DNA of 64,000 bases from Hyphomicrobiales bacterium (GTDB lineage: Bacteria > Pseudomonadota > Alphaproteobacteria > Rhizobiales > Aestuariivirgaceae), in assembly GCA_025359265.1 (NCBI GenBank), contig JANYHB010000027.1:1-64000 (forward strand). The letters run 5' to 3'. The notes beneath the pieces were generated by a model, which worked only from the letters and a program-made list of their open reading frames with translations, was not told where the DNA came from and did not search any database. Position 1 is the stretch's first letter. Every line of letters starts with the position of its first letter. The translations under genes and the position numbers were made by a program. Shown in pieces: positions 56,977-61,336 of this stretch.

Positions 56977-58878
56977 TTATATTCTGCCGCGCTCAGCCAG
57001 TAACCTGACCACAGCCTCAGCAGCTTCTTCCGACGATGAAACCGCGGTATCCACGCGCAGTTCCGGTGCATCCGGCTTTTCATAGGGCGAGGAAATGCCG
57101 GTGAAGTTCTTCAGTTCTCCTCGCCGCGCTTTGGCGTAGAGGCCTTTCACGTCGCGCTTTTCGGCCTCAACCAAAGATGTATCCACGAAAATCTCCATGA
57201 ACTCGCCTTCGCCCATCAGTTCGCGCGCCATTTGACGCTCAGCCTTGAAGGGGGAGATGAACGAGACCAGGGTGATCATCCCGGCATCCGTCATCAGCTT
57301 GGCCACTTCGCCCACGCGGCGAATGTTTTCCACGCGGTCTTGATCGGTGAAACCCAGATCGCGGTTAAGGCCGTGGCGCACATTGTCGCCATCCAAAAGA
57401 TAAGTGAGTTGCCCGCGTGCGTGCAATTTCTTTTCCACCAGATTGGCGATGGTGGATTTGCCAGCGCCTGAAAGGCCGGTGAACCACAGCACTGTTGGCT
57501 TTTGCCGCAACAATACGGCACGGGCATTCTTGTTAACATCCATCGCCTGCCAGTGAATGTTGGCCGCGCGGCGCAAGGCAAAATTGATTAAGCCAAATCC
57601 AACCGTGTTGTTGGAGAAACGGTCAATGATGATGAAGCTGCCCAAGGTTTTGTTCGCCGTGTAGGGCTCAAATGCCAGCGGGCCTTGCAGTTCCAAATTG
57701 CATAAGCCAATTTCATTGAGCGCCAAAGTTTCAGCTGCCTGGTGTTCCAGCGTGTTGACATTCACTTTGTATTTCAATTTATCCAAAGTGCCGGGCAACA
57801 TTTTAGTGGCGGATTTGATGAGATAGGCGCGGCCCGGCAGCATGGGCTCATCACCCATCCACAAAACCTGCACTTCAAATTGATCAGAAACTTCAACAGC
57901 AGATTGCGCCGCGCAAATCACATCGCCACGGCTGGCATCAACCTCATCAGCCAGTGTGAGTGTGATGGCCTGTTCGGCTTGCGCTTCCGAAAGGTCACCA
58001 TCCTGCGTAACAATGCGCGTCACTGTGCTTTGCTTGCCCGATGGCAGAACTTTCACCTTGTCGCCCGTCTTCACGCTGCCCGAAGCAATGGTTCCGGCAA
58101 AGCCACGGAAGTTTTGATCGGGCCTGTTCACCCATTGCACAGGCAAGCGGAAGGGTTTTAGCTTCGCATCGTCCCCAACTGGCACCGTTTCGAGATGGCC
58201 CATCAAGGTTGGCCCCTGATACCACTGCATTCGCGATGAGCGCTCAATCATATTGTCGCCCATCAAAGCTGATACCGGGATTATTTTGATTTCAGACGTA
58301 ACACCAAGATCAGCAGCAAACTTGCGGTAATCGGCTTCGATCCGCTCAAACACCTCGCGTGAGAAGCCCACCAAGTCCATCTTATTGATGCACAACACCA
58401 GATGACGAATGCCCAGCAGCTTGCAGATGAAACTATGGCGCCGCGTCTGCGTGAGAACGCCTTTGCGCGCATCAATCAGAATAATGGCAAGCTCGGCAGT
58501 TGATGCGCCGGTGGCCATGTTGCGTGTATATTGTTCATGCCCCGGCGTATCCGCCACGATAAACTTGCGCCGGGCCGTGGTGAAAGCGCGGTAGGCGACG
58601 TCGATGGTAATACCCTGTTCGCGCTCTGCCGAAAGCCCATCCACCAGCAAGGCGAAATCCAAATTGCCGCCTTGTGTGCCAAGCTTTTTTGAATCCGCCT
58701 CCAGTGCGGCTAGCTGATCCTCAAACAACATCTTGGATTCGTAAAGCAGGCGACCAATGAGTGTGCTCTTACCATCGTCAACCGAACCGCAAGTGATGAA
58801 ACGCAATAAATCCTTATTTTCTTGTTCTGCAAGATAAGCGTCAACATTGCCGCCCTTGAACTCAACAAAGCGGGTCAT
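56977..58878 (-). CDS. cysNC: Bifunctional sulfate adenylyltransferase subunit 1 / adenylylsulfate kinase
   Basis: [27 protein letters not shown] GTPase; C-terminal [29 protein letters not shown] kinase. Confidence 0.95.
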
Positions 58879-58900
58879 ATGTAAGCTCCAAATCTAAATT

Positions 58901-59051
58901 CCTTCTCCCCTTGCGGGAGAAGGTGGCTTGCGCCGCCGTCGGCGCAAGATGGATGAGGGGTATGGTTCAACACGCGCAGTGCTAGCATGGAAGGATCGGA
59001 GCGACCCCTCATCCGGCACTTCGCGCCACCTTCTCCCGCAAGGGGAGAAGG
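58901..59051. repeat. Palindromic MITE-like intergenic repeat, copy 2 (between cysD and cysNC)
   Basis: Perfect 26 bp terminal inverted repeats CCTTCTCCCCTTGCGGGAGAAGGTGG / CCACCTTCTCCCGCAAGGGGAGAAGG. Confidence 0.93.
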
Positions 59052-59068
59052 ACGATGAATGAAATCCA

Positions 59069-60181
59069 TCAGAAATACCCTTCCTGCTTCTTTTTCTCCA
59101 TCGATTGGGAAGCATCCTTGTCAATCACGCGGCCTTGGCGTTCAGATGACGTGGCCACCAGCATTTCTTCAATGATGTCATTGAGTGAAGTTGCTTCTGA
59201 TTCAATGGCCCCGGTTAAAGGATAGCAGCCCAGCGTGCGAAAGCGGATTTTCTTCATCTGGGGCTTTTCACCCGCGTGAAGCCTCATGCGGTTATCATCC
59301 ACCATGATGAGCTGCCCATCGCGCTCAACAACCGGGCGCTCGGCCGCAAAATACAAAGGCACAATTGGAATATTCTCGCGCGCAATATATTGCCAGATGT
59401 CCAGCTCCGTCCAATTTGACAGCGGAAACACGCGAATGCTTTCGCCCTTGTTCTTGCGCGCGTTGTAGAGGTTCCACAATTCCGGCCTTTGATTCTTCGG
59501 GTCCCAACGGTGCTTGGTGTCGCGGAAAGAAAAGATGCGCTCTTTGGCACGGGATTTTTCTTCATCGCGCCGTGCCCCACCAAAAGCTGCATCAAAACCG
59601 TGATTGTCCAGCGCTTGCTTTAGACCATCGGTCTTCATCACTTGCGTGTGCAGCGCCGAGCCATGATCAAACGGGTTGATATTTTTAGCCACACCTTCGG
59701 GGTTAATGTGCACAATCAGCTCCAGCCCCAGCCGCCGTGCCGTTTCATCGCGCATCGCAATCATCTCACGGAATTTCCAACGTGTATCCACATGCAAAAG
59801 CGGGAAGGGCGGCTTGGCCGGATAAAACGCTTTCATGGCCAGATGCAACATCACGGCAGAATCTTTGCCGATGGAATAAAGCATCACCGGCTTTTCACAT
59901 TCGGCGGCCACTTCGCGGATAATGTGGATAGATTCGGCTTCCAGCTTTTGCAGATGGGTGAGGCGGTCGTTTGCGATCATTGGTTTTGCCTTTGGTTTTT
60001 GCGCCGCCATCCAGCCGCGCACTTTGTCCATGGTTCTGGCCGAAGGGCTGCGGCCCTCGCGTAAATCAAACACAAAATTGGGATCAGCGAGAGCGTTTTT
60101 GCCCAAAGCGCTAGGATCTATGCCTGAATTGGCCAAAAATTGTTCAATTTCGCTCAGAAAAATGCTGGAAGTATCACGCAT
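59069..60181 (-). CDS. cysD: Sulfate adenylyltransferase subunit 2 with N-terminal HTH-like extension
   Basis: Canonical CysD from [42 protein letters not shown]; preceded in frame by [58 protein letters not shown]. Confidence 0.9.
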
Positions 60182-60182
60182 A

Positions 60183-60207
60183 ATAGGAAATTTCCTATCA
60201 TATGATA
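60183..60207. promoter_or_regulatory. Overlapping perfect palindromes adjacent to cysD start
   Basis: ATAGGAAATTTCCTAT (60183-60198) and TATCATATGATA (60196-60207). Confidence 0.6.
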
Positions 60208-60304
60208 ATTTGAATGTCAAAATCCTATTTGAAATCTCGGTGATATTTAAGATGAGGCCAAATCCAATTCCGGCTAAATGCGGCGCAACAGGAGTTTTCA
60301 TCCG

Positions 60305-61336
60305 ATGAATCGTTGCGTTCTCGCCCTATTTGCCTCTGCCGCATTCGCCACCGCTGGCATGGCGCAAGTGAAGATGGATGGCACCTTTACGGCTGCCAAG
60401 GCCTGTGAAGCGGTGGTGTCGATCAAGAAAGGCACCAATCCAGACAAGGCCGCAATTAATGCTGGCAAGGCCTATCATCTGTTGGGCAAGAATAAAGATG
60501 ATGCCACGCATTATTGGATTGAAGTGCCGGACGCGCAACCAAAACAGCGCTGGGTGGCGGTGGATTGCGGATCAACTGATGGACATGCAGCGATCACCGC
60601 GCCAGCCCCAGCCCCCAAACAAGGCAACGTCGCCGTCAACACACCACAAGGCACCGTAAAACCCAAACCTCAATCTCGCGGTTTTGGCGGCGGCGTGCCT
60701 TACTACGCTTTCGCTTTGTCGTGGGAGCCAACTTTCTGTGAAGCCATGCGCGATAAAGCTGAGTGCAGGGCCGAATCGCCATCTTCCTGGGAAGCGTCAC
60801 ACTTCACATTGCACGGCCTGTGGCCACAACCGCGCCGCAATCAATTCTGTGGTGTTGATCCCAAATTATCGGCCCTTGATGACCAACATCAATGGGACGC
60901 TTTGCCCGAACCGGAATTAAGCCCACAAACTCGCGCTGCCCTCAACATCGCCATGCCCGGCACCCTCTCCAACCTGCAACGCCATGAATGGATCAAACAT
61001 GGCACCTGTTATCCTTCAGGCAACGCCGAACAATACTTCAAAGATGAAATCCGTTTGGAAAATGAAGTGAACGCCTCCGCCGTCCAGCAGCTTTTCGCGC
61101 TCAACATTGGCCGGAACATTTCCGCGCCAGAAATTCGTGCTGCCTTCGACCAATCATTCGGCAAAGGCGCTGGCGATCATGTTCAGGTGGAGTGTGACCG
61201 CAATGGCCGTCTGTCGGGCTTCACAATGAACTTGCGAGGCGACATTCCGGCAGGCACAGATTTGAAAACCTTGCTGGCCGCCGGTGATCCAGCGCAAAAT
61301 AAATGTGATGGCGGAATGGTGGATCCGGTCAGATAA
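60305..61336 (+). CDS. Secreted ribonuclease T2 family protein
   Basis: [21 protein letters not shown] signal peptide; [20 protein letters not shown] (CAS1), [11 protein letters not shown] (CAS2). Confidence 0.92.

Follow-up and report, generated by a model that had tools for sequence, protein, structure and literature searches.

A CysD with a predicted N-terminal XRE-like helix-turn-helix domain and a matching palindrome at its own promoter in Aestuariivirga

Why should an enzyme of sulfate activation begin with what looks like a DNA-binding domain? The question is raised by a cysD gene of Aestuariivirga, a genus of soil and water bacteria. The gene lies in the first 64,000 nucleotides of contig JANYHB010000027.1 (assembly GCA_025359265.1, Hyphomicrobiales bacterium), a stretch referred to here in its entirety as the window. 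An earlier note had described a single continuous frame in which a helix-turn-helix (HTH)-like extension precedes CysD, and had pictured an enzyme that represses its own operon. The coordinates, residues and internal ATG (59980) given there were all correct, with 67 residues ahead of this in-frame ATG (residue 68). Features of the locus are collected in Table 1.

Table 1. Features of the fused cysD locus, in window positions; operators, promoter and recognition helix are predictions.
Feature	Position	Strand	Remarks
HTH-CysD fusion CDS	59069..60181	-	370 aa + stop
N-terminal XRE-like HTH domain, residues 1-62	59996..60181	-	AlphaFold2, fold matches, purifying selection
Predicted recognition helix, residues 36-41 (FVFDLR)			D39 is the candidate specificity residue
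Linker, residues 63-73	59963..59995	-	From alignment; holds internal ATG 59980
CysD enzyme (sulfate adenylyltransferase small subunit)	59072..59962	-	TIGR02039, PAPS_reduct; PP-loop SIGKDS intact
cysNC (bifunctional CysN GTPase subunit / APS kinase)	56977..58878	-	PRK05506, 1045 bits; downstream of cysD
Predicted operator O1	60183..60198	.	Perfect 16-bp palindrome ATAGGAAATTTCCTAT; core TAGGA-N4-TCCTA at 60184-60197
Predicted promoter	60192..60220	-	TTGACA (60220-60215), 17-bp spacer, TAGGAA (60197-60192); consensus match only
Predicted second, half operator	60223..60228	-	ATAGGA, just upstream of -35, about three helical turns from O1

The reading frame is unbroken on the minus strand from ATG 60181 to its stop at 59069. 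It is formally open farther upstream, where ATG 60301 would give a protein of 410 aa, and this start was ruled out, as protein conservation begins at 60181 and the stretch before it holds the predicted promoter and operator. Residues 77–370 match TIGR02039 over the whole model (positions 1–294) at 524 bits, against a cut-off of 396.6, and the nearest solved chain for the enzyme part is 1zun_A (aligned over residues 68–370). The fused gene is the sole CysD found in the window's genome, and its active-site motifs are kept. CysD works in a complex with CysN, and membership in the CysD family is borne out by the adjacent cysNC gene, which is presumably co-transcribed and co-regulated with cysD. 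The interval between the two genes (58880–59065) holds an inverted-repeat element, CCTTCTCCC-CTT-GCGGGAGAAGG, together with a second similar copy. This element looks like a dispersed intergenic repeat, and one of its arms scores as terminator-like. On the other side of the fusion gene, and with a promoter region in common with it, lies a divergent gene (60278–61336) for a ribonuclease T2 family protein.

The earlier note had proposed that the fusion be sought in other genomes, and it is present in 28 of 37 Aestuariivirga genomes, the window's own included. The other nine comprise four with a plain CysD, starting MPQAP or MQQAP, three without a strong CysD match, and two (G026 and G030) scored for the domain alone, which they lack. 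The same loci are found in a second genome collection, among them those of Aestuariivirga sp. and A. litoralis KCTC 52945 (Hyphomicrobiales). In a CysD tree, the four unfused genes form one clade (99/95) nested among the fused genes, such that one gain and one loss account for the pattern. Pairs of relatives give a dN of 0.04–0.14 for the domain versus a dS of about 0.6–1.7, and on this measure the domain is under purifying selection. The linker differs in length and sequence between species in the alignment, with the frame always kept. A frameshift, an assembly error or a chance open frame is ruled out by the occurrence of the fusion in 28 genomes and by the dN and dS of the domain. A separate observation concerns the A. 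litoralis genome, where a second CysD-like frame, divergent in sequence, contains a TGA in frame (G017:C1:54304-55245).

The proposed HTH nature of the extension is supported by structure prediction. An AlphaFold2 model of the domain, built on a 32-sequence alignment, has four helices (residues 4–19, 23–31, 36–41 and 48–61) with a pLDDT of 90. The nearest solved folds in Foldseek are mostly of the XRE/lambda-repressor type and include C.BclI, SinR, ClgR, HipB, C.Esp1396I and others, with TM-scores of 0.65–0.76 by query length and E-values above 1. Membership in the XRE/lambda-repressor-like group is thus assigned at the level of the fold, as a four-helix, all-alpha HTH, and with E-values this high the case for an HTH depends on how consistent the hits are, together with the operator evidence below. 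Sequence searches with residues 1–62 gave no match to the HTH family models of Pfam and NCBIfam (HTH_3 and relatives), no convincing match in the PDB, and nothing in PHROGs. The full-length protein is modeled with moderate confidence (pLDDT of 72), and residues 65–70 of the linker are a low-confidence stretch. Taken together, the model and the fold matches support an XRE-like HTH in the N-terminal domain.

If the domain binds DNA, a likely target is found at the promoter of its own gene. The palindrome O1 sits directly ahead of ATG 60181. O1 is the sole instance of ATAGGN6CCTAT, and likewise of TAGGAN4TCCTA, in the 2.65-Mb genome, and within the window it is also the only occurrence of the looser TAGGN6CCTA. 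The predicted -10 hexamer falls inside O1, and several relatives have a fuller site where the window has its half operator. The promoter call reflects a match to consensus and carries no weight as evidence on its own; its 17-bp spacing is the same in four relatives (L003, L004, L006 and L029), and several other species have TTGAC at -35 from the ATG. Transcription is predicted to start at or near ATG 60181, which would yield a leaderless message. Such messages are known in Alphaproteobacteria and make up 7% of those in Methylorubrum (PMC9320726).

The distribution of the operator follows that of the domain. The 150 bp upstream of each gene were scanned against the ten specified positions of TAGGAN4TCCTA, with dinucleotide shuffles as controls. 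All 28 fused cysD genes have an upstream site matching at 8–10 of the ten positions, and 25 of these sites match at 9–10 (each p<0.015 versus the shuffles). The remaining three (L021, L024 and L027) reach only 8/10 and are weak on their own, and some fused species have no more than an 8/10 site, at a distance from the start codon. In many species, another site stands beside or upstream of the -35. In contrast, ahead of the four genus members without the fusion and of two outgroup genes, the best matches are 5–6/10 and cannot be told from the shuffles. The unfused four are a single clade nested in the genus that lacks domain and operator alike, and judged from these upstream regions the two come and go together within Aestuariivirga.

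The same domain is not confined to CysD. Profile searches of nearly 800 genomes from the order and class recovered standalone proteins of 57–90 residues, tandem double-domain proteins, and N-terminal fusions to several unrelated enzymes. For instance, the domain precedes homoserine dehydrogenase (PRK06349) in 19 genomes examined, all of one family other than the window's, and a TAGG-N6-CCTA-type site at 8–10/10 lies before 19 of the 19 genes. The loci L030 and L188–L202 are of this kind, and belong to one family of the order. Class II fumarase (TIGR00979; L062:1483-3123) carries the same N-terminal HTH, here with a recognition helix of hybrid type (NDGKFVFDLR), and has the partial site TAGGAAATATCCCT upstream. 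So does CoaBC, an enzyme of coenzyme A synthesis (TIGR00521; L187/L169 in one genome, L187:759-2177), which has a near-operator, TAGGAAATTACCTT, upstream. An AMP nucleosidase (PRK08292; L084:1299-2972) has a divergent HTH copy, and no exact palindrome was seen within 200 bp upstream of it. Finally, an NDGK-class HTH is joined to a methyltransferase-like protein of 450–490 aa (L155, L076, L087 and L175–L186). This fusion partner has a FDAGVGDGT-type motif and gave no Pfam or NCBIfam match; some of its genes have TGGG-N6-CCCA upstream, while many are without an exact palindrome within 200 bp. Many standalone members have a TAGG-N6-CCTA-type site upstream as well, and many distant members of the family lack an exact palindrome within 200 bp. 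At two loci (L118:3255-3896 and L120:3248-3919), a standalone member lies divergent to an S24 peptidase-type repressor with TAGG sites in between, an arrangement that suggests a two-gene regulatory switch.

Across this family, the kind of operator correlates with the recognition-helix residue that precedes a conserved Leu (D39 in the window protein). The count was made on 51 sequence clusters, and an exact T-x-GG-N6-CC-x'-A palindrome within 200 bp was required. Where such a palindrome is present, it is TAGG-N6-CCTA in 16 of 16 clusters with D, N or Q at this position and TGGG-N6-CCCA in 11 of 11 clusters with R or S. The resulting division of 16:0 against 0:11 gives a Fisher p of 8e-8, which is optimistic, and serves as a guide more than as a strict test, since the clusters share ancestry and are not phylogenetically independent. 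This grouping of residues is a refinement made once the data had already been inspected with the recognition helices grouped by a DP or DG motif; the first grouping worked with two exceptions (L062 and L083), and the refined one fits better, with L083 left out of the classing. An exact site within 200 bp is missing from slightly more than half of the R/S clusters and from roughly one in three D clusters. One cluster with T at this position has the operator TCGG; in L069, a member with Thr there, a perfect TCGGAATTATCCGA palindrome ahead of the gene points to a possible third specificity. The correspondence of residue and operator would be hard to explain unless the domain itself reads the site.

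On these grounds, autoregulatory DNA binding by HTH-CysD is strongly supported by comparison. The window protein holds a predicted DNA-binding domain and an enzyme in one polypeptide, and comparative sequence evidence places an operator at the fused gene's own promoter. What the earlier note had supposed about binding to that promoter gains comparative support from three observations: a palindrome covers the promoter, it occurs together with the domain, and recognition residue and operator are correlated across other enzyme fusions. Its further claim of repression fits the position of the operator; the repressing sign itself we infer, because the operator overlies the predicted -10. It is therefore probable that HTH-CysD is a negative autoregulator of its own operon, acting via its built-in XRE-like HTH on the -10 palindrome. 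In the mechanism proposed, the N-terminal HTH would bind as a pair to TAGGA-N4-TCCTA over the -10 of the predicted leaderless cysD promoter, and the second half or full site near the -35 would be bound too. HTH-CysD so placed would block RNA polymerase, and the output of cysD-cysNC would thereby be kept in line with the amount of CysD. More speculatively, substrates (ATP, APS) or assembly with CysNC may change the binding, which would make the protein a trigger enzyme reporting the state of sulfate activation. The simplest version is feedback on the amount of CysD, for which no sensing is needed.

The chief rival to self-repression is that the operator belongs to another repressor, such as a LexA-like S24 protein, and the fused domain is an evolutionary passenger. 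The divergent S24 neighbors of two standalone members, mentioned above, speak for such a protein, but the window gene is divergent to a ribonuclease T2 gene and not to an S24 gene. The non-LexA S24 protein of the genus occurs whether or not the fusion does, its HTH is of another kind, and no good operator lies upstream of it. Furthermore, the type of operator tracks the small domain's own recognition residue, and domain and operator are absent together, all of which makes a separate repressor unlikely.

A comparably low probability is assigned to autoregulation in the opposite sense, in which the fusion would activate transcription, or would switch between activation from an upstream site and repression from the one close to the start. 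XRE proteins such as the C-proteins of restriction-modification systems both activate and repress from paired sites. Such C-proteins are among the fold matches of the domain, and the second sites next to or upstream of the -35 in many species would suit this behavior. Repression is nonetheless favored by the best site in the window and its close relatives, which covers the predicted -10 and the start.

It is very improbable that the domain has no DNA role and serves CysD folding or the joining of CysNC, with the palindrome a coincidence. CysD does operate in a complex and N-terminal extensions can be structural, but the operator accompanies the fusion in 28 of 28 cases, is absent in the unfused clade, and is paired with the same domain on unrelated enzymes. 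Least probable of all is translation mainly from ATG 59980, giving a CysD of normal length with the upstream frame as a leader or minor form: an AAAGG stands eight bases before this ATG, which is common to part of the window's subclade, but the low dN of the domain relative to dS indicates that it is translated, and in at least five fused genes the linker offers no ATG, GTG or TTG codon. In those species, the full-length form is thus the only evident CysD, and the dual translation starts once suggested are not conserved in the genus. A second, shorter form is possible in the window's species and is not needed.

Self-repression by HTH-CysD can also be set in a broader frame, which is offered tentatively and with more doubt than confidence. 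The domain may be a portable HTH module for autoregulation, so far undescribed, that became joined on separate occasions to at least five metabolic enzymes of Alphaproteobacteria with no relation to one another (CysD, homoserine dehydrogenase, CoaBC, fumarase and AMP nucleosidase, plus the methyltransferase-like protein). These enzymes would be self-repressing via a simple one-residue code, and catalytic or assembly state would gate their binding to DNA. No prior description of a CysD-HTH or homoserine dehydrogenase-HTH fusion, or of the domain family, was found in the open-access literature searched. To our knowledge, most enzymes that regulate their own genes have been described as isolated cases. 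In this family, a single small HTH without annotation has apparently been attached to several unrelated biosynthetic enzymes whose promoters carry related operators. Confirmation of binding would make this a natural plug-in design, with a simple specificity code, by which enzymes control themselves, and would single out sulfate activation and the synthesis of homoserine and coenzyme A as points of direct, enzyme-level transcriptional feedback in these bacteria. The family also suggests a role for many unnamed small proteins of Alphaproteobacteria.

Compared with the CysD of the CysDN ATP sulfurylase (1zun_A, TIGR02039), the window protein is a complete, ordinary CysD next to cysNC, and differs in its 62-residue predicted DNA-binding domain and N-terminal linker. 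With XRE/lambda-repressor-like regulators (C.BclI, SinR, ClgR, HipB and C.Esp1396I), it shares the four-helix HTH fold and a short palindromic operator, predicted in this case, at the regulator's own promoter. Unlike these regulators, its domain matches no family model and serves as a portable N-terminal module on enzymes. BzdR, described as a regulator evolved from an enzyme and an HTH domain (PMC3602430), likewise joins an HTH to an enzyme-like domain; it is presented there as an enzyme turned regulator, whereas the window enzyme retains its active-site motifs as the genome's only CysD found. Repressor domains built into enzymes are not new in themselves and are found in the trigger enzymes PutA and BirA (PMC6978683). 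Like these, HTH-CysD is a metabolic enzyme with its own HTH-type domain and, by inference, control of its own operon. It differs in that the enzyme is one of sulfate activation, in that the HTH has no Pfam or NCBIfam match, and in that at least five unrelated enzymes bear the domain and several of these have related operators.
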